Below are positions 15,075-23,199 of a stretch of 41,358 nt of DNA, piece after piece (the stretch's first letter is position 1; each line of letters opens with the position of its first letter). The notes under the pieces are model-generated. The model saw nothing but the letters and a program-made list of their open reading frames with translations, ran no database searches and had not been told where the DNA came from. The stretch is from Deltaproteobacteria bacterium (GTDB lineage Bacteria > Desulfobacterota > Desulfobacteria > Desulfobacterales > Desulfobacteraceae). The stretch is taken from assembly GCA_027858995.1 (NCBI GenBank), contig JAQIBP010000048.1, positions 1 through 41,358 of the forward strand, given 5' to 3'. The position numbers and the translations under genes were made by a program.

Positions 15075-15090
15075 TACCATCCAAGGGTAA
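15075..15090. repeat. Attachment repeat, left end (attL)
   Basis: TACCATCCAAGGGTAA, identical to 21800-21815. On the minus strand it reads as the last codons of nfnB (Thr-Leu-Gly-Trp) plus the start of a stop codon (TAG here). The bases flanking the match differ at both ends, so 16 bp is the full identity. Confidence 0.85.
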
Positions 15091-15222
15091 ACCCTTGAAA
15101 TAAAAGGAAATATCGGGATATAGTGGGACATTGAAAAATCAAATAGTTACAAGATTTTTCTATTTTAAATCATAAGTAGGATATATAAGGTCACATAAGG
15201 AAACAGGGGGGTATTTTTCAAC

Positions 15223-15244
15223 AAATGTTACCCAAATGTTGACC
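15223..15244 (+). repeat. Tandem 11-bp repeat near the left end (possible integrase arm sites)
   Basis: AAATGTTACCC (15223-15233) is followed immediately by AAATGTTGACC (15234-15244), one mismatch. The core GTTGACC recurs in the tandem repeat near the right end (21674-21697) and at 18867-18877. Tandem short repeats at both ends are what arm-type integrase sites look like; the role is inferred. Confidence 0.45.
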
Positions 15245-15274
15245 ATAACAGTGTAATATTGATTGGAGGGCGTA

Positions 15275-15964
15275 ATGAAAAAAATAGCATTAATACTTGC
15301 CATCATCTCCTTATCCTTCGTTATCAAATCTTATTCTGCGGAGCAATATGGATTTAAGGACATACCATTTGGTGCGTCCTACGAAGAAGTATACGAAAAA
15401 GCGGAAGAAATACAGAATAGATATGATGAAGAACAATGGAATAATAGAAGTCACCGTCTAAAAGACTACGACTTAAAAAAATGGAAGCGATTTAGCAGAA
15501 GCAGAAAGCGAATGTACCTATTGGGTTTGAAAGAAAAGAAATATGTCGCATTAATAGGTAATAAGTACAATTTAGGGGACATAAATGTCGATGTATATTT
15601 TTATTTTGACCATAATGACAAATTTTATTCTTTTCAACTTTCAACAGAAAAAGTATCAGCTAACTATCTTGAAACCAAGGTCTATAAGGATGGAAAATAT
15701 ATAACGGAAATTTTCAAAACAAAATACGGTAAATCTTCCAAATGTTACAGCAATCCTAATATATTAAAGATTAGACAAGGATATATTAGTTATCTATGCA
15801 AGTGGGAACATAACGATTTGAGAATATATACTGGAATTAGCGAAAATAATATGAAATATTACGCTGTAGGGATGGTAACATTTAAGCCAATGGAAGAACA
15901 GTATGAAAAATATAAGAAACAAAAAGAGCTAAAAGGTACCGCTAAAGGAGCTGCTGCTTTTTAG
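15275..15964 (+). CDS. Secreted protein of unknown function (possible cargo)
   Basis: A 229-residue protein with a clear signal peptide (basic MKK, hydrophobic IALILAIISLSFVI, likely cleavage after SYSA). The mature part begins with GFKDIPFGASYEEVYEKA, a pattern seen in many small periplasmic proteins that have a 'GIPFG' opening, and is rich in Tyr and Lys. Two cysteines (about 153 and 170) could form a disulfide. I do not recognise a named family. ATG 15275 is preferred over TTG 15263 because GGAGGG at 15265-15270 lies just upstream. It sits at the attL end, a usual place for satellite cargo such as host-benefit or exclusion genes; that role is inference. A terminator follows at 16025-16056. 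Confidence 0.75.
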   Translation: MKKIALILAIISLSFVIKSYSAEQYGFKDIPFGASYEEVYEKAEEIQNRYDEEQWNNRSHRLKDYDLKKWKRFSRSRKRMYLLGLKEKKYVALIGNKYNLGDINVDVYFYFDHNDKFYSFQLSTEKVSANYLETKVYKDGKYITEIFKTKYGKSSKCYSNPNILKIRQGYISYLCKWEHNDLRIYTGISENNMKYYAVGMVTFKPMEEQYEKYKKQKELKGTAKGAAAF

Positions 15965-15991
15965 ATTAAGATCAAATCCAACTTTGTACAG

Positions 15992-16020
15992 TTTAATACT
16001 TTCACCCGCTGTAATTAAAA
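15992..16020 (+). repeat. 29-bp direct repeat, copy 1
   Basis: Matches 16361-16389 with two differences, both transitions. Each copy is immediately followed by a terminator hairpin. Together the two copies bracket the zinc-ribbon gene 16075-16365. Confidence 0.7.
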
Positions 16021-16024
16021 AAAT

Positions 16025-16056
16025 CCCCTTCCTGCTAACCCGGGGAGGGGGGTTTT
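16025..16056 (+). terminator. Rho-independent terminator
   Basis: CCCCTTCC pairs with GGAGGGG, with one bulged base, and GGTTTT follows the stem. It ends the secreted-protein transcript before the zinc-ribbon gene. Confidence 0.6.
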
Positions 16057-16074
16057 AATATAAGGATATGAATA

Positions 16075-16365
16075 ATGAAACGCATCTGCCAAAAATGTGG
16101 GGCGGAAAGAAAGATTGAGGAGCCTGTAAAAAACGGTTGTAAACTATGCGTTAAATCAAGGTACAATCGATTACAATGCAAAAATTTAACAGACTCTTAT
16201 ATTAGGTCTTTATTAAACCGACATGGTGTCATTAAGCTCACTCGTAAAGAAATCCCACAAGAATTAATAAAATTAAAAAGAGAACAAATAAAAATGTTTA
16301 GATTAATCAAGGAGTGTGAAAATGCAATGGAAAACAAAGAGCCTGGTGATATCATTTCATTTTAA
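16075..16365 (+). CDS. Small zinc-ribbon phage-like protein
   Basis: 96 residues. Two cysteine pairs, CQKC (5-8) and CKLC (22-25), form a probable zinc ribbon. The segment LTDSYIRSLLNRHG followed by EIPQELIKLKREQIK resembles a helical motif found in many phage and island proteins, sometimes ahead of HNH nucleases; no nuclease motif is present here. Its function is unknown. The ATG lies after AAGGAT at 16063-16068, a modest ribosome binding site. The gene is bracketed by 29-bp repeats, each with its own terminator, so it behaves like an independent unit. Confidence 0.7.
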   Translation: MKRICQKCGAERKIEEPVKNGCKLCVKSRYNRLQCKNLTDSYIRSLLNRHGVIKLTRKEIPQELIKLKREQIKMFRLIKECENAMENKEPGDIISF

Positions 16366-16389
16366 TACTTTCACCTGTTGTAATTAAAA
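16361..16389 (+). repeat. 29-bp direct repeat, copy 2
   Basis: Second copy of 15992-16020. It overlaps the stop of the zinc-ribbon gene and runs into the next terminator stem. Confidence 0.7.
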
Positions 16390-16422
16390 CCCGGTTAGGT
16401 TAGAGCCTTTCCGGGTTTTTTT
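16386..16422 (+). terminator. Rho-independent terminator
   Basis: A perfect 9-bp stem AAAACCCGG/CCGGGTTTT (16386-16394 with 16411-16419) closes with a run of Ts. It ends the zinc-ribbon gene and, read the other way, lies 80 bases past the minus-strand gene 16504-17100. Confidence 0.85.
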
Positions 16423-16503
16423 ATTTAAAGTCTAATTTTCTGAGTAGTAGGATATAGGTCAACCTCTTAAAACCTCTTAAACAGTAAATATGGAAGCCGG
16501 TTT

Positions 16504-17100
16504 TTAACTTTTATTCATTGGACTGCTATGATCTGTGTAAACCGTCTTTTTTATCTTTAGGGGTGCCCCTTTGCCTGTATTGCTTTTTTGTATTATTTCG
16601 GGAAGCATGTTGTCTAAAAAATTATCTGCACTTGTTGGAACACTAAACAATTTACTTTTGCCTCCGAGTGGCTGATCGAGCCAATCCAGCCTTCCTGTAC
16701 GTCTCAAGTTTTTAAATTGATCCGGATTGATGCCCCACAGTTTACATAGTTTTTTTGAATCATATTCGATATTAGAATCACCACGGTCGCTTATTTGTTT
16801 CCCGGTCATAACAAATTTACGGCGATCATTAAAATATCCGGGTAAATGCCCCGCCTCTGCATGATATCTAATTTTGGAAAGAGATAGCACTATACACACT
16901 TTATGTTTTATTTCGTCACCGTCATATGTGTACCATTTATCATCTTCAGGTGAGTAATATGGATCATCTTTAGTTATATCATCTTCAGGTATATCAGGTA
17001 TATCAAGTATAACTTTAATCTTGGAATATACACGGTTCATTTCATTCCCGATGGCTGTATATCCTACAAATTCTTTTTTGTCATATTCATCGTCTGACAT
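16504..17100 (-). CDS. Hypothetical protein, possible regulator of the element
   Basis: 198 residues with no family recognised. The N-terminal half is acidic (repeated IPEDD / SPEDD segments). The C-terminal half has KLCKLWGINPDQFKNLRRTG, which could be a helix-turn-helix, and a basic tail. No membrane segment or signal is present. It is the only minus-strand gene of the element and is divergent from the XRE gene across a 155-base region with an inverted repeat. That is the layout of a lysogeny-type switch, so a repressor-like role is plausible but unproven. The start at 17100 is the first ATG after the divergent region. Confidence 0.65.
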   Translation of the reverse strand: MSDDEYDKKEFVGYTAIGNEMNRVYSKIKVILDIPDIPEDDITKDDPYYSPEDDKWYTYDGDEIKHKVCIVLSLSKIRYHAEAGHLPGYFNDRRKFVMTGKQISDRGDSNIEYDSKKLCKLWGINPDQFKNLRRTGRLDWLDQPLGGKSKLFSVPTSADNFLDNMLPEIIQKSNTGKGAPLKIKKTVYTDHSSPMNKS

Positions 17101-17255
17101 AGTTTTTTTGACTCCTGATCATATATGTAATTGTGTAACTTATTGTAATTACATGGAATCATTTTTACACTTCTTGCTCTTATATTTTTTATCATATCAC
17201 ATGTAAGATGAAATTAAAAAGAGAAAAAGAAATAATATTTATTCAGGAGGTAAAC
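17101..17255. promoter_or_regulatory. Divergent control region with inverted repeat
   Basis: An inverted repeat ATGTAATT (17125-17132) and AATTACAT (17147-17154) with a 14-base spacer, plus further GTGTAAC/GTAATT half-sites between them, lies between the minus-strand gene and the XRE gene. It is the likely operator of one or both proteins. AGGAGG at 17245-17250 is the XRE ribosome binding site. Confidence 0.5.
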
Positions 17256-17441
17256 ATGAATGTAAAACAAATAAAAATTTTGAGAATTCAAAAAGGATGG
17301 AAGCAGATTGATTTGGCTAAAAAAACTCAAATCGATCAAGCTCAAATTTCACGGTTGGAAAACGGTCATGTGAAAAATTCAGAGCGATACAGCGATCGAA
17401 TTTTTAAGGCATTTGGATTACAGGAACCAGGTGAGAAATAA
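17256..17441 (+). CDS. XRE/Cro-type helix-turn-helix regulator
   Basis: 61 residues, nearly all one HTH domain: KILRIQKGWKQIDLAKKT then QIDQAQISRLENG. This is the classical Cro/C1 fold that binds operator DNA as a dimer. ATG 17256 is chosen over the in-frame 17208 because AGGAGG lies 5 bases before it and it starts the HTH directly. It is divergent from the gene at 16504-17100 and overlaps the next gene by 11 bases, so it heads the element's rightward operon and may control the switch. Confidence 0.85.
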   Translation: MNVKQIKILRIQKGWKQIDLAKKTQIDQAQISRLENGHVKNSERYSDRIFKAFGLQEPGEK

Positions 17442-17883
17442 AAACTCTCAAAAATATCCTGGTTATCTGACCTATCAATTATTTGTGTCGGATGCTTTTA
17501 GATATCTGAAGCCAGCAGCCAAAGATATTTTATTACTTCTATATTTTGAAATTAAGATATCGTCAGGCAAAAGCAGGTCAAAGAAATATACACCGATTGT
17601 CATCAACCGGCATGAAATCAAGCTACCTTATGCAGATATAAAAGAAGGGTCGAAAGTAAAGCCGATAAGGCCGGATGGATATTCAGATAAAACCATATGG
17701 ACATCTTTCAATCAATTACTTGCCCATGGATTTATAAAGGTCATTAAAATTGGCGGTGGTCATAAAGGTGAAGTCAGTGTCTATGAAATAAAAGAAGATT
17801 GGCGGGAATGGAAACCAGGCCAAATAATTCATAAACGGCAAAGAAGTAATAGGAAAATTGGATGGCAAAAGAAAGAAAGTTAA
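17431..17883 (+). CDS. Winged-helix replication-like protein
   Basis: About 150 residues starting at GTG 17431 (AGGA 5 bases upstream; TTG 17413 is an alternative). The pattern YLTYQLFVSDAFRYLKPAAKDILLLLYFE, split here as a helix pair and wing, then GYSDKTIWTSFNQLLAHGFIK and VSVYEIKEDWREW, looks like the winged-helix domain of small plasmid/phage replication initiators and related island proteins. The basic C-terminus (KRQRSNRK) could bind DNA. The iteron-like repeats start 10 bases after its stop, which supports an initiator role. No helicase or primase motif is present, so it would rely on host or helper replication proteins. The function is inferred. Confidence 0.6.
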   Translation: MRNKNSQKYPGYLTYQLFVSDAFRYLKPAAKDILLLLYFEIKISSGKSRSKKYTPIVINRHEIKLPYADIKEGSKVKPIRPDGYSDKTIWTSFNQLLAHGFIKVIKIGGGHKGEVSVYEIKEDWREWKPGQIIHKRQRSNRKIGWQKKES

Positions 17884-18044
17884 AAAAAATAAGCTGTACT
17901 GTAGGAAAGGAACACCACTGTACTGTAGGAAAGGAACACCCCTTAAAAAAGAGAGGTTCTTTTCCTGTAGGTAAACCAGTTTTGTTGAAATCATTAGGTT
18001 TTTTGACCTTGAGGTTCCTTACCTACACTACAGCGCTATTATAG
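17862..18044 (+). CDS. Possible 60-residue ORF over the iterons
   Basis: Overlaps the preceding gene by 22 bases and has AGGA at 17851-17854 before ATG 17862. Its sequence is dominated by translated DNA repeats (CTVGKEHH, CTVGKEHP, then PVGKP). It may be a real small protein, as when an origin lies inside a coding region, or simply an open frame over repeats; I favour the latter slightly. Confidence 0.3.
   Translation: MAKERKLKKISCTVGKEHHCTVGKEHPLKKRGSFPVGKPVLLKSLGFLTLRFLTYTTALL
17894..18033. repeat. Iteron-like repeats, candidate replication origin
   Basis: Two tandem copies of a 24-bp unit (17894-17917 and 17918-17941) are identical over 23 bp and begin CTGTACTGTAGG. A shorter degenerate copy is at 17964-17978. 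An inverted copy at 18013-18033 (GGTTCCTTACC then TACACTACAG) matches with about three differences. AT-rich DNA lies between them. Tandem and inverted binding sites beside a winged-helix gene are typical of origins or of autoregulatory sites. Confidence 0.6.
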
Positions 18045-18075
18045 TTAGACACTGAGTGTCAGGAAAGTGAAAAGA

Positions 18076-18147
18076 ATGAATAAAAAAGAGAAAAAAGGGC
18101 ATGTGGTCGATTTCACCCCAAAAATTCAGGAGAAAACATGTATTTAA
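18076..18147 (+). CDS. Possible 23-residue ORF
   Basis: ATG 18076 follows AGGAAAG at 18061. It encodes MNKKEKKGHVVDFTPKIQEK plus three residues and overlaps the next start by 10 bases. It could be a translationally coupled small protein or a leader. A palindrome GACACTGAGTGTC (18048-18060) lies just upstream. Confidence 0.3.
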   Translation: MNKKEKKGHVVDFTPKIQEKTCI

Positions 18148-18374
18148 AAACAGTAAACCAAACCAAGGATCTCACATTTTTAGAAGTGGGAAAACTCGTT
18201 AGACTTAAATTAAACACTGGTTCATGTCTTTGGGCTAAGGTTGATAGTGCCAGAGACAATGGAACATTTAGAGGGGTTGCAGTTGATACTTTTGATCCTG
18301 TGAATAAAGGAGACCTGGTAATATTTAACCATGATCATGTTTTTTCAATCAGGCCTGTGTTGTTTGGTGGCTAA
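18138..18374 (+). CDS. Small hypothetical protein
   Basis: 78 residues, no family recognised. Beta-rich pattern: VGKLVRLKLNTGSCLWAKVD, then GTFRGVAVD and KGDLVIFNHDHVFSI, reminiscent of a small SH3-like or OB barrel. CAGGAG precedes ATG 18138 by 5 bases. It is part of the rightward small-gene run of the element. Confidence 0.6.
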   Translation: MYLKTVNQTKDLTFLEVGKLVRLKLNTGSCLWAKVDSARDNGTFRGVAVDTFDPVNKGDLVIFNHDHVFSIRPVLFGG

Positions 18375-18458
18375 TAAAATGGTGTTAAGTATAATATTTG
18401 AGATAGTTTTCTGTGAAGTATTATGAATAAAATCAATAAGTTTGGAGGCTTTTAAAAA

Positions 18459-18674
18459 ATGGGTAGGCCAAAAAGATCACCGACATTACGGAAACCGGAA
18501 CACGTCCGGAGGTTTGCAGCCAAATTAATTGGACAGTGTCAACGAAAAGAGTTGTCAGCTGATAAATTGCGTGCCCTGGTCAGTGGATTAAGTTTAATTT
18601 TGAAAATAATTGAAGTTGCGGATCTGGAAAAAAGATTAATCAAGCTTGAGGAGAGTGCAACCCATGAAGATTGA
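18459..18674 (+). CDS. Small basic hypothetical protein
   Basis: 71 residues. A basic N-terminus (MGRPKRSPTLRKPEHVRRF) is followed by two helices with coiled-coil character (KIIEVADLEKRLIKLEE). The composition is typical of small nucleic-acid-binding phage proteins, but no family was recognised. GGAGG at 18443-18447 precedes the ATG. It overlaps the excisionase-like gene by 11 bases. Confidence 0.6.
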   Translation: MGRPKRSPTLRKPEHVRRFAAKLIGQCQRKELSADKLRALVSGLSLILKIIEVADLEKRLIKLEESATHED

Positions 18675-18852
18675 AAATAAATTATTGCTTAATGTTGAGG
18701 AGTCAGCGGGAGTTTTATCAATTGCGCCAAAAACATTAAGGAACCGTCTGGGGCCAAGAGCAAAAAACCCTTTCCCTGTGAAACCAAAGCGGATCGGGAG
18801 TAGAGTGTTGTTTTATTTCCAGGATTTAAAAGAGTACGTTGAGTCGCTCTAA
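18664..18852 (+). CDS. Excisionase/AlpA-like helix-turn-helix protein
   Basis: 62 residues with the MerR-like winged-helix pattern of excisionase-family proteins: LLNVEESAGVLSIAPKTLRN, then PFPVKPKRIGSRVLFYFQDL and KEYVESL. Such proteins bend DNA at att sites and direct excision, or, like AlpA of P4-type elements, activate the integrase. ATG 18664 is preferred over 18646 because GAGGAG (18649-18654) lies upstream and the domain begins here. It is the best candidate for the recombination directionality factor. Confidence 0.7.
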   Translation: MKIENKLLLNVEESAGVLSIAPKTLRNRLGPRAKNPFPVKPKRIGSRVLFYFQDLKEYVESL

Positions 18853-18970
18853 AATTTGGTGACCTGGCGTTGACCAAGGGCATGAAGAATACTGTTATTG
18901 TAGGCTCTATATAACTGCTACTACCTATAAGTGGTAATAGCTTAATTGAAAAAAACAAGGAGAATGACTT
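18853..18970. promoter_or_regulatory. Intergenic control region
   Basis: 118 bases holding a copy of the GCGTTGACCAA motif (18867-18877) and an imperfect inverted repeat, GCTACTACC with GGTAATAGC (about 18917-18939). The ribosome binding site AAGGAG for the next gene is at the end. Likely the start of the transcript for the protease/scaffold genes; no promoter can be assigned firmly. Confidence 0.35.
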
Positions 18971-19216
18971 ATGTTGTCAGGAGATGCGAAGAGATTGTAC
19001 GGAATGTTAAAAAAGAAAGGTGTTGAGGCTATCACAAAATTGAAACCAGAAGATAGGGACATGATTATCAATGGAAATAAGAGGCTTTTCCAGGTGGAGA
19101 GGCAAAGAGCCAATCCCATGAATGATTATGTCATTGAAACCGCAATGGTCATTGATCGGTCTATTTTAACAGACCAATTCATTTATGACACTTTAAAAGA
19201 GCATGGAGTAATTTAA
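18971..19216 (+). CDS. Small hypothetical phage-like protein
   Basis: 81 residues, mostly helical: SGDAKRLYGMLKKKGVEAI, KLKPEDRDMIINGNKR, then NDYVIETAMVIDRSILTDQ. No family recognised. AAGGAG precedes the ATG. It ends 2 bases before the protease-like gene and is probably cotranslated with it. Confidence 0.6.
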   Translation: MLSGDAKRLYGMLKKKGVEAITKLKPEDRDMIINGNKRLFQVERQRANPMNDYVIETAMVIDRSILTDQFIYDTLKEHGVI

Positions 19217-19218
19217 AA

Positions 19219-20109
19219 ATGGAAATTCAAATCTTAGAAATAGGATCAAGATTAAACCTTGATGACCTGGAAGAGATCGCCGGTAATTTTCGGCGTACAA
19301 AAGGAGAGATTAAGCCACCGTTGAGACTTGGAAAAAAAGTTTCTACCGGAGATCCGGCGATGGGCTGGATCTCAAATTTGAAAGTAGCAGGTGGAAAACT
19401 TTGGGCGACTGTTTCAGACTTGCCGGGAAAAATAAGAACAGCTGTTGGCACAAAGCAATATAAATCCATTATTGCAGAGGTAATGTCTGATTACAGGTTG
19501 CATGGGCTTAACATTGGAAAGGTTTTATCATCTGTTGCATTACTTGGTACTGGCCTTAAAACCAAAAGCCTGGAAAGTTTAGCAAATTACATTGCAGTAA
19601 ATGAAGTTGGAAGCTTTTCAAAGGTTCTTTGTTTTGAGCAGCAGGGTCCGGGAATTGCAGAACGGATTGAAGCAGCTGGAAATCTTTTAGAAAAAGAGAC
19701 AAAAAAAACTAAGATACTATTAACTGAGCAAAACAGCCTCATAAAAGAGAGTATTGAGCTCAATTTAAATCAAGGAGTTAGAACAATGCCAGAATTAAAA
19801 ACTTTTACAAACAAGACAGAAGCGGAAGACGATCTGTATCGTAGGGCTGAAAAATTGGCCTTTAAAACTGATAAATCCTTTGATGAGTGTTATAAGCACT
19901 TATTGACTGATTCAAGCGATCCTGCAGTAATTAAACTTACTGACAATCGGGAAACTGTTTTGACAGATATGGAAGCCGCAGGAGAGCAGCTGGACAGGGC
20001 AGCACAGAGATATATGCTCCATAACGACGTCTCTTATACAAAAGCTCTTTCCTTTGCCATGGAAGAAAATCCGAACCTGGCAAAAATTTATACTGGTTTA
20101 GACAGATGA
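19219..20109 (+). CDS. Mu gpI-like capsid protease/scaffold protein
   Basis: 296 residues. The first ~135 match the pattern of Mu-like gpI capsid maturation proteases: NLDDLEEIAGNFRR, PPLRLGKKVSTGDPAMGWI, NLKVAGGKLWATVSDLP, and SSVALLGTGLKTKSLESL. The rest is helical and charged, like a scaffold. In relatives I remember, the segment corresponding to YKSIIAEV reads with Ser before Ala-Glu; here that place is Ile, so proteolysis may be lost. A second start lies inside at ATG 19786. In a prophage this gene would be followed by capsid genes; here only one tiny ORF follows. The lone capsid-assembly gene suggests interference with, or redirection of, a helper phage's capsid. Confidence 0.65.
   Translation: MEIQILEIGSRLNLDDLEEIAGNFRRTKGEIKPPLRLGKKVSTGDPAMGWISNLKVAGGKLWATVSDLPGKIRTAVGTKQYKSIIAEVMSDYRLHGLNIGKVLSSVALLGTGLKTKSLESLANYIAVNEVGSFSKVLCFEQQGPGIAERIEAAGNLLEKETKKTKILLTEQNSLIKESIELNLNQGVRTMPELKTFTNKTEAEDDLYRRAEKLAFKTDKSFDECYKHLLTDSSDPAVIKLTDNRETVLTDMEAAGEQLDRAAQRYMLHNDVSYTKALSFAMEENPNLAKIYTGLDR
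19786..20109 (+). CDS. Nested in-frame scaffold-like protein (internal start)
   Basis: Within the protease-like gene, AAGGAG at 19772-19777 is followed 8 bases later by ATG 19786 (residue 190), which would yield a 107-residue helical, charged protein beginning MPELKTFTNKTEAED. Mu makes its scaffold Z, and lambda its Nu3, from just such internal in-frame starts in the protease gene. The good ribosome binding site is seen directly; expression is inferred. Confidence 0.55.
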   Translation: MPELKTFTNKTEAEDDLYRRAEKLAFKTDKSFDECYKHLLTDSSDPAVIKLTDNRETVLTDMEAAGEQLDRAAQRYMLHNDVSYTKALSFAMEENPNLAKIYTGLDR

Positions 20110-20297
20110 CTCTTAAATCAAGATTGAAATTGCTTGAACTAAAAAGCAAGCCGGTTGATTTGGAGCCGTTCACTAAACCCTGGTATCAGGCAGTGAAACG
20201 TGGTGATATCCAGGTTCGCTTTAATGTTTCAGTCACCGACAAACCACCCATAGGAGCTGTTAAACTTGCAGCAGGAGTTTATGCATGTCAAAGTTAA
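20106..20297 (+). CDS. Small hypothetical protein
   Basis: 63 residues, starting in an ATGA overlap with the protease/scaffold stop, so probably translationally coupled. Helical start (TLKSRLKLLELKSK), then WYQAVKRGDIQVRFNVS. No family recognised. It is the last small gene before the terminator at 20386-20410. Confidence 0.55.
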   Translation: MTLKSRLKLLELKSKPVDLEPFTKPWYQAVKRGDIQVRFNVSVTDKPPIGAVKLAAGVYACQS

Positions 20298-20385
20298 TGT
20301 TTGACAGGGATTTGGATAGCATGTATTCTGTATTTAGCTTAGAAATATCTAAGTTTCGGTTTGGAAGCCGAAATAACCAAGGCGG

Positions 20386-20410
20386 AAACGCCATCATAGG
20401 CGTTTTTTTT
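20386..20410 (+). terminator. Rho-independent terminator
   Basis: Stem AAACGCC/GGCGTTT (20386-20392 with 20399-20405), 6-base loop, followed by a run of Ts. It closes the protease/scaffold transcript. Confidence 0.8.
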
Positions 20411-20425
20411 ATTCTGCTTGTATTT

Positions 20426-20505
20426 GGGCAGATAAAACGTGGAGACTTAAAGTCTGCCGGTTCCCTTGGTATCCGGTCTTCCAACCCGTTTTATCTGCCC
20501 TTTTT
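20426..20505 (+). ncRNA. Structured RNA candidate (closed by a 14-bp stem, ending in a T run)
   Basis: GGGCAGATAAAACG (20426-20439) is perfectly complementary to 20487-20500, and TTTTT follows. The enclosed 47 bases hold a palindrome AGACTTAAAGTCT (20443-20455) and a CCGG-bounded hairpin (20457-20476). It could be a small RNA with its own terminator, a leader of the integrase gene, or just an elaborate terminator. It is not a standard tRNA: there is no T arm in the right place. Confidence 0.45.
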
Positions 20506-20551
20506 GTTTGGAAGCAATAGGGTGGACAACATAAAACCGAGGAGGTAAAGC

Positions 20552-21715
20552 ATGGGAGTTTTAGCAGAGTGTCCAAATTGTCACAGGAAGCAGTCAACCA
20601 GGAATAAAGTCTGCACATGCAATTTAAACCTAGACAAATCTAAACAGAGTAAAAAGGTGAGGTATTGGATTTCCTACAGAATTAACGGCAAACAGAAGCG
20701 TGAATCAATCGGCTTTAAGATTTCAGTGGCAAAGGATGCAGACGCCAAGAGAAAGGTTCAAAAAAGAGAAAACCGGATATTTGATATCAAGTTGGATTCT
20801 AAAATGACCTTTAATGAACTGACAAGCTGGTATCTTAAACTGGCAAAAGTCCAGGCACTTGCAAGTTATCCTATTATAAAAATTCGCTTGTCAAAATTCA
20901 ACCAGGTGTTTGGTAATTGGATTATATCTAATGTCAAACTTGCAGACTTGGAGAATTACCAGGCGATGCGCTTACAAGAGGGCTATGCTTGTAACACTGT
21001 GGATCATGATATAAAGAAAACACAAACCATGGTCATAAAAGCTTTTGATAATGATATGGTGAGTGGTGATATTCTTAAAGTGTTTAAGCGCTGTAAGCAG
21101 ACTTTAAAGAAAGGTTCAGATGTCCGGGATCGGATATTGACCATTGATGAATTTGAAAGCATTAAAAATAACCTGTTAGAACATTTTAAGCCTATTTTCG
21201 CCACTGCTTATTATACAGGGATGCGAAAGTCTGAAATCTTTGGTTTGACCTGGGATAAACTCAACCTGAAAAGTCGTGTGATCAAGTTAGAGGCTTGTGA
21301 TACCAAGAACGGAGAACCTCGCTCTATTCCTATCTGTGATAAGCTGTATGAGGTTCTAAATAAGATCCCTGTGGCCTTGCATGGTGGTCATGTGTTTCTT
21401 AAAGATGGGATACCACTTAAAGGTATCCTCTGCAATCTGATAAAAGCCTGTGAAAAAGCTGGTGTCATTTATGGCCGATATGAGAAGGGTGGATTTGTTT
21501 TCCATGATCTGAGGCATACCTTTGTAACGAACATGCGAAAATCAGGTGTTTCAGAGAGTGTTATTATGGATATAGTAGGTCATAGCACCCGTTCAATGTT
21601 TGATAGATATAACAAAATTGACTCCGAAGATACTAAGGCAGCTATTGATATTTTTGGTAAATATCTTGATAACAGCGTTGACCAAAGCGTTGACCAAGTA
21701 AAAGTAAACGGCTAA
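20552..21715 (+). CDS. Tyrosine-type site-specific integrase
   Basis: 387 residues. An N-terminal zinc-ribbon-like cluster (C7, C10, C21, C23) and a basic DNA-binding region (KQKRESIGFKIS) are followed by a SAM-like core-binding domain (about 90-190) and the catalytic domain. Catalytic residues visible: R225 in TGMRKSE, H318 and R321 in HDLRHTF, H344 in GHSTRS, and nucleophile Y353 in DRYNKI. It catalyses integration and excision between the 16-bp att repeats; its stop lies 84 bases from the right repeat. The C-terminus encodes the duplicated SVDQSVDQ over a tandem DNA repeat. GAGGAGG at 20539 onward gives a strong ribosome binding site. Confidence 0.93.
   Translation: MGVLAECPNCHRKQSTRNKVCTCNLNLDKSKQSKKVRYWISYRINGKQKRESIGFKISVAKDADAKRKVQKRENRIFDIKLDSKMTFNELTSWYLKLAKVQALASYPIIKIRLSKFNQVFGNWIISNVKLADLENYQAMRLQEGYACNTVDHDIKKTQTMVIKAFDNDMVSGDILKVFKRCKQTLKKGSDVRDRILTIDEFESIKNNLLEHFKPIFATAYYTGMRKSEIFGLTWDKLNLKSRVIKLEACDTKNGEPRSIPICDKLYEVLNKIPVALHGGHVFLKDGIPLKGILCNLIKACEKAGVIYGRYEKGGFVFHDLRHTFVTNMRKSGVSESVIMDIVGHSTRSMFDRYNKIDSEDTKAAIDIFGKYLDNSVDQSVDQVKVNG
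21674..21697 (+). repeat. Tandem 12-bp repeat near the right end (possible integrase arm sites)
   Basis: Two perfect adjacent copies of AGCGTTGACCAA (21674-21685, 21686-21697) inside the end of the integrase gene. They share GTTGACC with the tandem repeat near the left end. Confidence 0.5.
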
Positions 21716-21785
21716 AAGGCAAACCACTATATTATGATAAACCCTTTAATATATAAGCAATTTTGGCGGTTTGTTTTTAGCCGTT
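21707..21785. terminator. Long-loop inverted repeat between integrase and nfnB
   Basis: A perfect 11-bp stem AACGGCTAAAA (21707-21717) with TTTTAGCCGTT (21775-21785) and an inner AAACC/GGTTT. It overlaps the integrase stop and lies 14 bases past the nfnB stop on the other strand. It probably ends both convergent transcripts, replacing the nfnAB terminator left behind at 15025-15049. Confidence 0.5.
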
Positions 21786-21798
21786 ACAATTCTTCTAA

Positions 21799-23199
21799 TT
21801 ACCATCCAAGGGTAAGATAGTCATGCATGGAAGTGGCAGCATCTCTTCCTGCTCCCATGGCAAGAATGACTGTCGCAGCTCCTGTAACAATATCGCCTCC
21901 TGCCCACACACCTTTTTTGGATGTCTTTCCATTTGCAGGGTCAGCAGTAATATTGCCCCACCTGTTCAACTCCAGTCCAGGTGTTGAACTTGTAAGCAGG
22001 GGATTTGCATTGGATCCTACAGAGACTACTACAAGATCGCAGTCAAAATCAAATTCAGAGCCTTCAATGGGAACAGGTCTTCTTCTGCCTGAATCATCAG
22101 GTTCACCCAACTCCATTTTAAGACATTCCATTCCTGTCACTCTGCCGTTTTCATCTCCATAAAATTTTGTAGGGTTGGTCAGAAGAACAAATTCAATTTT
22201 TTCTTCTTCAGCATGGTGCAGCTCTTCATCCCTTGCAGGCATCTCTTCTCTGGATCTTCTGTAAACAACCTTTACAGATTCAGCTCCAAGCCGCATGGCT
22301 GTTCTGGCTGAATCCATGGCAACATTTCCAGCGCCCAGGACAACAACATTTTTGCCCCTTGCAATTGGAGTGTCATATTCAGGAAAAAGATAGCCCTTCA
22401 TCAGGTTTGTACGGGTTAAATATTCATTTGCTGAATATATACCGATAAAATTTTCACCCTCAATATTCATAAATCTTGGCAGACCTGCGCCAACTCCAAT
22501 ATATGCGGCATCATAGCCCTCTTCAAAGAGTTCATCAATGGTGACAGAAGCACCGACCACGGTATTACACTCAATGTTTGCTCCCATTTTTTCAAGGGAT
22601 GCAATTTCTGAAGCTACAATCGCTTTTGGGAGACGAAATTCCGGGATTCCATAGACCAATACTCCGCCTGGTTTGTGAAAAGCTTCAAATATTGTGACAT
22701 CATGACCCTTAAGCAGAAGATCTCCTGCAACAGTAATGGCTGATGGTCCTGATCCGATAATAGCAACTTTTTTTCCTGTTTTCTCTGCAACTTCTGGAAC
22801 TTCTCCGGAACCATTCTCTCTCTCCCAGTCAGCAGCAAATTTTTCAAGATAACCTATTGCAACCGGGTCTCCTTTTTTGCCCAAAATACATACACCTTCA
22901 CACTGGTCTTCCTGGGGACAGACACGCCCGCACACAGCAGGAAGCGCATTTGTCTCCCACAGTTTTTTTGCAGCACCTGAAAAATCTTTTTCAGCAATTA
23001 ATTTTATAAATTCAGGTATTTTAACGGAAACCGGACATCCATCTACACATAAAGGTTTTTTGCACTGAAGACATCGTGAAGCTTCAACCATGGCCATCTC
23101 TTCTGTGAGCCCAAGCGGGACCTCATCAAAATTTCTTCTTCTTGCATCAGGGTCTTGTTCAGGCATTTTTGCCCGGGGTGTTTTTATTTTTTTAGACAT
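21799..23199 (-). CDS. nfnB: NADH-dependent reduced ferredoxin:NADP+ oxidoreductase subunit B
   Basis: 466 residues, homologous to the glutamate synthase small subunit. The N-terminal Fe-S region has CLQCKKPLCVDGCP and CGRVCPQEDQCEGVC. FAD-binding IIGSGPSAITVAG and NADPH-binding VVVLGAGNVAMDSARTA follow. Beside nfnA this identifies NfnB, which carries the bifurcating FAD and two [4Fe-4S] clusters and couples NADPH to reduced ferredoxin and NADH. It is cytoplasmic. The last codons (LTLGW) and stop lie in the right att repeat, so the C-terminus survives integration. A lone GltD-like role is less likely because no large glutamate synthase subunit is present. Confidence 0.9.
   Translation of the reverse strand: MSKKIKTPRAKMPEQDPDARRRNFDEVPLGLTEEMAMVEASRCLQCKKPLCVDGCPVSVKIPEFIKLIAEKDFSGAAKKLWETNALPAVCGRVCPQEDQCEGVCILGKKGDPVAIGYLEKFAADWERENGSGEVPEVAEKTGKKVAIIGSGPSAITVAGDLLLKGHDVTIFEAFHKPGGVLVYGIPEFRLPKAIVASEIASLEKMGANIECNTVVGASVTIDELFEEGYDAAYIGVGAGLPRFMNIEGENFIGIYSANEYLTRTNLMKGYLFPEYDTPIARGKNVVVLGAGNVAMDSARTAMRLGAESVKVVYRRSREEMPARDEELHHAEEEKIEFVLLTNPTKFYGDENGRVTGMECLKMELGEPDDSGRRRPVPIEGSEFDFDCDLVVVSVGSNANPLLTSSTPGLELNRWGNITADPANGKTSKKGVWAGGDIVTGAATVILAMGAGRDAATSMHDYLTLGW
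21800..21815. repeat. Attachment repeat, right end (attR)
   Basis: Identical 16 bp to 15075-15090. It covers the last four codons of nfnB and two bases of its stop; the stop becomes TAA because of the neighbouring element base, whereas the left copy would give TAG. Confidence 0.85.

Follow-up and report, generated by a model that had tools for sequence, protein, structure and literature searches.

A probable phage satellite in a desulfobacterial genome, with a C4 RNA beside its integrase and an apparently non-catalytic protease-scaffold homologue

The window analyzed here comprises 41,358 nucleotides of contig JAQIBP010000048.1 from a Deltaproteobacteria bacterium of the family Desulfobacteraceae (assembly GCA_027858995.1). 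Positions 15075-21815 constitute a genuine mobile element of about 6.7 kb which is bounded by exact 16-bp repeats. It is probably a new variant of phage satellite, the mechanism of which we infer. All in all, we lean towards a phage-satellite-like integrative element in which an antisense RNA of the C4 type controls the integrase and a protease-scaffold protein interferes with capsids. Small size, anatomy, a phage-type RNA and an apparently non-catalytic scaffold homologue fit a satellite which interferes with, or remodels, the head of a helper phage. This reading is strengthened by the C4 RNA beside the integrase and by a scaffold homologue that lacks a conserved His and Ser. The argument turns on the following features (att, attachment site).

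15075-15090, no strand: att copy at the left end, exact 16-bp repeat TACCATCCAAGGGTAA
19219-20109, plus strand: homologue of Mu gpI-type protease-scaffold proteins without the conserved His and Ser (phrog_976, E = 1.7e-10)
19786-20109, plus strand: possible internal start which would yield the scaffold part alone, 107 aa (in-frame ATG preceded by AAGGAG)
20301-20329, plus strand: promoter-like TTGACA-17-TATTCT (a consensus match alone; 32 such sites in the element vs. 23.3 ± 5.4 in shuffles)
20336-20410, plus strand: isrK/seqA-like leader RNA with a1/b1 sites and a terminator-like hairpin (RF01394, 37 bits with a cut-off of 50, E = 2.4e-5)
20421-20503, plus strand: C4 antisense RNA (RF01695, 50.3 bits with a gathering score of 45, E = 1.2e-7; fold z -6.5)
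20506-20545, plus strand: putative a2/b2 target of C4 which overlaps the Shine-Dalgarno sequence of the integrase (GTTTGGAAGC on both sides of C4; AACCGAGG at 20535)
20552-21715, plus strand: tyrosine integrase (PF00589, E = 2e-20)
21800-21815, no strand: att copy at the right end, in the last codons of nfnB, exact 16-bp repeat TACCATCCAAGGGTAA

The first-pass annotation, made by a model from the sequence alone, had claimed matching att repeats and an integrase, and both are borne out. Flanking repeats plus an integrase are what characterizes an integrative mobile element. When up to two mismatches are allowed the repeat has two matches only, i.e., the two att copies; shuffles contain 0.03 on average, and two matches turned up in 1 of 100 shuffles. 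The right copy sits in the 3' end of an nfnB-like gene (21799-23199; PF14691 and PF07992) which is intact and open. Removing the element in silico joins the nfnB end to a hairpin and a run of T, terminator-like by reading. The GC content of the element is 0.363, that of the flanks 0.386. The annotation had also suggested looking for the same gene order at nfnB in other genomes. There are 28 nfnB-like matches in 24 of 26 genomes, and 26 of the 28, the window's own included, were compared as loci. Each of them aligns with the nfnB end, but the alignments stop at most about 11 bases into the left flank; hence no close relative with a matching empty site was found, nor did the searched genomes contain a second copy of the gene set.

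The RNA module spans 20336-20503, and C4 ends 48 bp before the integrase. C4 is known as the immunity RNA of phages P1 and P7, where it represses ant (PMC12197685); isrK has been described as structurally homologous to SeqA of satellite P4, in which the CI RNA pairs with seqA and seqC (PMC4825925). In the window the C4 structure exceeds the Rfam gathering score and a cognate a1/b1 target lies upstream. This upstream pairing (TTGGAAG, ACCAAGG) was equalled by 6 of 1000 shuffles, by 9 of 500 when G-U was admitted and, as duplex energy, by 11 of 2000. In the putative downstream a2/b2 target the a word is exact and the b word contains one G-U. The 10-base word GTTTGGAAGC is found exactly on both sides of C4, which was reached by 9 of 2000 shuffles. 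b2 lies on the Shine-Dalgarno sequence, likewise in L148, a locus with the same isrK-C4 pair in which isrK and c4-a1b1 are below cut-off as well.

Within the class, C4 has 40 matches in 23 of 389 genomes (19 genomes above cut-off). We compared 30 of them, 25 above cut-off; these loci are not independent because several derive from closely related genomes. The pairing score counts Watson-Crick runs only (one G-U was admitted in the shuffle pairing test) and it yields a best pair for any input, so that only the comparison of native with foreign partners carries weight. On average, C4 RNAs scored 14.3 against their own upstream flanks vs. 10.6 for foreign C4s, and 15.3 vs. 8.2 downstream. A downstream word which starts with TT and pairs with C4 is present in all 30 loci and recurs upstream in 29, in two (L274 and L275) one base short.

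The gene behind C4 sets the window apart. In P1 and P7 the C4 fold and the a and b words on both sides are alike, and a b2 at the ribosome-binding site would be a further likeness, yet an antirepressor gene follows (PMC12197685). P4-like satellites (seqA - CI RNA - seqC) are likewise small integrative elements in which a leader RNA precedes an antisense RNA of the C4/CI type and a target, all in the same direction (PMC4825925); in the window the target downstream of C4 is putative and the next gene encodes the integrase. A profile of this integrase subfamily alone placed an integrase 3' of C4 in 2 of the 30 loci: directly in the window and at a distance of 1.3 kb in L274 (the same place as L148), where an antirepressor-like gene lies in between. 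By reading, an antirepressor-like gene is present within about 1 kb behind C4 in 11 of the 30 loci and a replication-initiator-like gene in about eight (L258, L259, L260, L264, L265, L268, L269, and L276); in L263 no gene behind C4 was covered. The latter arrangement recalls the RNA control of replication in P4 and possibly points to a wider family of elements in the class.

The second pillar is the protein encoded at 19219-20109, apparently a single, non-catalytic protease-scaffold homologue. The match to phrog_976 (head maturation protease) covers residues 15-110, i.e., homology to Mu gpI-type proteases extends across the protease domain; Pfam gave no match. A single capsid-assembly-type gene, as initially proposed, is thus present. 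As a lone query the protein retrieved no relative in genome contigs, viral contigs or phages. An alignment of seven gpI proteases (A1) retrieved 578 relatives, of which the best 80 IMG/VR loci were kept. Direct searches, with the own genome counted and in overlapping sets, gave matches in 2 of 97 genomes (E ≤0.001), 7 of 395 (E ≤0.01) and 7 of 360 (E ≤0.01). By reading, the relatives in G066, G483, G638, and G619 belong to head operons of the Mu type, together with genes for terminase, portal and head. In that of G638 (L285) a C4 RNA and an antirepressor-like gene are situated about 9 kb upstream of the gpI gene.

The best 80 IMG/VR loci and 20 further sequences were combined in an alignment of 100 rows. 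A His is conserved in 96 and a Ser in 97 of the 100; the window has Lys and Ile. These two are presumably the catalytic residues, as in the prohead proteases and the assemblins of herpesviruses. The rows that deviate are the window, two copies from G187, which have a gap in place of His and Arg in place of Ser, and G220, the sequence of which ends at His. Four further relatives (G754, G680, G638, and G619) have retained both residues, among them the best two genome matches, G754 and G680. A third conserved His was considered as part of the lost active site and discarded, because G754 and G680 are without it yet retain the other two. The alignment with G754 reaches the C-terminus with 25% identity over 327 columns (two-sequence blastp E = 3e-22; tblastn over five loci 9e-20). 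The layout of an internal scaffold start as at 19786 is annotated in phages B3 and RcapMu. An AlphaFold model of the protein has a mean pLDDT of 79.2 and a pTM of 0.43. Against viral structures it matches prohead proteases and scaffolds, 41 times at E ≤0.001, with TM values by query length of at most 0.36 among the top 50; the best matches are unnamed or uncharacterized proteins, followed by a peptidase, scaffolding proteins and capsid maturation proteases. Of the proposal that a protease/scaffold homologue acts as remodeler the homologue has stood, now without His and Ser; head remodelling is what we infer from it.

A comparable situation is encountered in G187. Contig 3 of this genome (L243, L049-L052) contains three stretches, each with a TerL-like gene followed by a gpI homologue without His and Ser. 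An integrase is located 3' in all three, one by Pfam and two by reading, and the third runs off the end of the stretch. The third gpI homologue is weak in PHROGs (E = 0.0088) and was picked up through its resemblance to those of the first two stretches (E = 1.5e-16, with 36% over 126 residues). The first two elements have 5.8 kb in common at 98.8% identity and diverge afterwards. Neither a portal nor a major head gene was seen in the part of their proteins which was scanned. These stretches appear to be satellite-like elements. They are like the window element in integrase, gpI homologue without His and Ser, and no portal or major head gene seen; they differ by the TerL-like gene, by other replication genes and, for two of them, by a size of about 9-10 kb.

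How might such an element operate? In the resident state C4 RNA would be made from the leader, whose a1/b1 site it can pair. By pairing a2/b2 at the ribosome-binding site C4 would keep the integrase silent, and the same pairing would silence an incoming copy. Once C4 control is lifted Int and Xis would excise the element, which a Rep-iteron unit would then copy. The non-catalytic protease-scaffold, full-length and in its internal-start form, may join the procapsid of a helper with a gpI-type head; altered head size or maturation would result in packaging of the element or in hindrance of the helper. The specific proposal, that C4 directly represses the integrase as an RNA immunity at the step of integration and that a catalytically dead copy of the protease-scaffold of the helper itself turned capsid hijacker more than once (window and G187), is tentative and rather doubtful. 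If the satellite reading is right, it would add this bacterial group to satellite biology, it would be a case of a C4 RNA switch wired to an integrase where others control an antirepressor or a replication gene, and it would represent a simple capsid hijack in which the scaffold of a head protease is retained and its cutting site is lost. In a narrow literature search no satellite report for this bacterial group was found, and the open-literature matches listed contain no report which matches C4 with an integrase or satellite, or an inactive prohead protease with a satellite.

Members of the integrase subfamily were found in 35 of the 389 genomes searched in the class, the own included (E ≤1e-60). 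Upstream of the integrase in 13 such loci 112 open reading frames (ORFs) of at least 85 aa were collected; 93 were scanned and 19, mostly short or on the opposite strand, were dropped. The family tally covers 25 of 144 families, and absences in it carry little weight. Since the subfamily accompanies many kinds of elements, the integrase by itself does not indicate the nature of the window element.

Several observations weigh against a satellite. No helper phage was identified; the sole gpI-type match in G000, the genome of the window, is the window's own. A second copy of the gene set is missing from the genomes searched. The protein model has no fold match in PDB at E ≤0.001, and herpesvirus proteases and T4 gp21 appear at E >0.1. 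The His/Ser and model results are partly built in because most rows were picked for likeness to His/Ser proteases and the model was based on such an alignment. Finally, L149, one of the 13 relatives with the same integrase, carries terminase, major head and tape-measure genes. L149 would suit a reduced prophage remnant, i.e., the drifting rest of a temperate phage which had this integrase and a head of the gpI type and lost most structural genes; so would G754, in which a 326-aa protein behind the capsid relative occupies the position of the major head protein (by reading). The first-pass annotation had regarded same-integrase relatives with a full phage gene set as the sign of a decayed prophage. 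This was found in part, as structural genes in L149 and as Zot-like and M13 protein I-like (filamentous-phage) matches in L142. By tblastn, however, the integrase is all that L149 has in common with the window, and in L142 only xis is added to it. Because so little is shared, these two loci alone do not make the window a decayed copy. Moreover, 12 uninterrupted ORFs, exact att repeats, iterons and an RNA module with its pairing speak against drift, and the loss of two residues while scaffold part and internal start were kept, repeated in G187, looks selective. We regard a remnant as unlikely. We give little credence to an unpackaged, integrative plasmid-like element in which the capsid-type gene would serve defence by poisoning the maturation of invading phages. 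Such an element would account for the Rep-iteron-like unit and for several same-integrase relatives in which replication or other genes were seen but none for phage structure, and a protease-dead scaffold could be a natural dominant-negative. Yet RNAs of the C4 and isrK-like kinds have been described in phages and in P4 (PMC4825925, PMC12197685), and PADLOC, applied to 10 of the 12 proteins, reported nothing beyond HTH-type (helix-turn-helix) matches, of which the Xre protein had the best at 1.5e-7, and one weak match to mad1. Anatomy, size, RNA module and protease-scaffold fit the satellite initially proposed, which is thereby supported in part.

For the C4 step there is a separate alternative, namely that C4 acts only on its own leader or elsewhere, not on the integrase, and that the a2/b2 match is a relic or due to chance. 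We regard it as well possible, if short of probable. The score of pairing with the integrase leader was equalled by 49 of 500 shuffles and the duplex energy by 542 of 2000, hence this pairing by itself is not significant; duplex energy was therefore dropped as support for C4 acting on the integrase leader. Furthermore, the downstream pairing of the window is the lowest of the 30 loci (12; all others at least 13), and 4 of 29 foreign C4s score equally downstream and 2 of 29 upstream. What speaks for the integrase as target is the exact duplication of the 10-base a word and the location of b2 on the Shine-Dalgarno sequence, which is shared with L148.

A phage is present in the same assembly. Contig C163 (L104; 12.7 kb) carries terminase, portal, head-morphogenesis and major head genes and, by reading, a tape-measure-like ORF at its end. 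It was considered as a candidate helper and dropped because the scanned head genes belong to other families and at most 21 bp are common with the element.

The remaining features of the element are these.

15263-15964, plus strand: predicted secreted protein, probable cargo (ORF with a signal-like N-terminus by reading; no significant family)
16075-16365, plus strand: small Cys-rich protein (ORF; weak matches only)
16504-17100, minus strand: putative regulator, divergent from the Xre gene (ORF; best HTH_17, E = 0.16, no significant family)
17208-17441, plus strand: Xre/Cro-type HTH regulator (HTH_3, E = 4e-10)
17413-17883, plus strand: putative replication initiator (start at 17413 TTG or 17431 GTG; iterons directly 3'; no family match)
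17894-18033, no strand: iteron cluster, probable origin (two direct, one good and one weak inverted copy)
18138-18374, plus strand: small ORF (ORF list)
18459-18674, plus strand: small ORF (ORF list)
18646-18852, plus strand: excisionase-like HTH protein (HTH_17, E = 0.0013, below the Pfam cut-off; relatives with at most 65% identity over 60 aa)
18971-19216, plus strand: small ORF (ORF list)
20106-20297, plus strand: small ORF with a 4-bp overlap with the capsid gene (ORF list; no Pfam match)

Twelve ORFs were selected in the element; all were scanned with Pfam and ten, i.e., without the ORF at 20106 and the integrase, with PHROGs. The Xre regulator and, weakly, the excisionase-like protein have family matches by Pfam and PHROGs, the integrase by Pfam and the capsid-type protein by PHROGs alone. 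Among the ORFs scanned there is no terminase, portal, major capsid, tail or lysis family, as had been claimed, and the element has no complete virion gene set of its own. The hallmark genes of capsid-forming phage-inducible chromosomal islands (own major capsid, portal, connectors, terminase) are absent from these scans. As to phage-inducible chromosomal islands in general (pri-rep and, in some, cpm or TerS genes), the scans gave no primase or terminase family; no Cpm model was sought by name. The excisionase-like protein, also claimed initially, has tblastn relatives in 13 loci, all of which hold related integrases. Of the divergent regulator pair the Xre half holds and the leftward half has no significant family.

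The iteron copies are located at 17894 and 17918 (20/20 each), at 18014 in reverse (18/20) and at 17956 in reverse (13/20); the last is weak because 13/20 matches occur elsewhere in the window too. That iterons come right after it is the sole reason for naming 17413-17883 a replication gene. Its protein has no Pfam or PHROGs family match and no relative in viral contigs; the iteron-like repeats of the first-pass annotation are confirmed, while the winged helix, like the Rep identity, is putative and lacks a family match.

The marker models Psu, delta, AlpA, epsilon and alpha, drawn from a P4-like list in which sid is a custom profile (PMC8628076), gave no match at E ≤1, although weak matches above about 0.1 may be lost. 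CpmB of Staphylococcus aureus pathogenicity islands and TcaP of phage-inducible chromosomal island-like elements resemble the window protein by proposed function only, as satellite-coded scaffolds which compete in the procapsid (PMC10945586); by description the window protein differs, being a protease-scaffold of the gpI type that lacks the conserved His and Ser. Phage-inducible chromosomal minimalist islands (PICMI) are similar in size and reduced gene content, but they are reported to have no capsid-remodelling gene and to be located beside fis (PMC10803314). To call the element among the smallest satellites is fair, yet it is not a record, as PICMI115 measures 6,110 bp (PMC10803314). Related literature includes PMC2864571 and PMC10690885.

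Fourteen loci with the same integrase were scanned for RNA families. C4 or c4-2 was detected in two and the int-alpA RNA in four (L020, L139, L143, and L149; in L139 far from this integrase); a tRNA adjoins the integrase in nine. No paper on 'int-alpA RNA' was found in the literature. In L143 and L149 this RNA ends about 20 bp before the integrase, a position which in the window is held by C4 and its downstream target. L143:8534-17957, about 9.4 kb, contains replication genes, a protease-major head fusion and this integrase, with no terminase seen; it is possibly another satellite. L138 and L139 have cyclic di-GMP riboswitches ahead of large secreted-protein genes near integrases of the subfamily.

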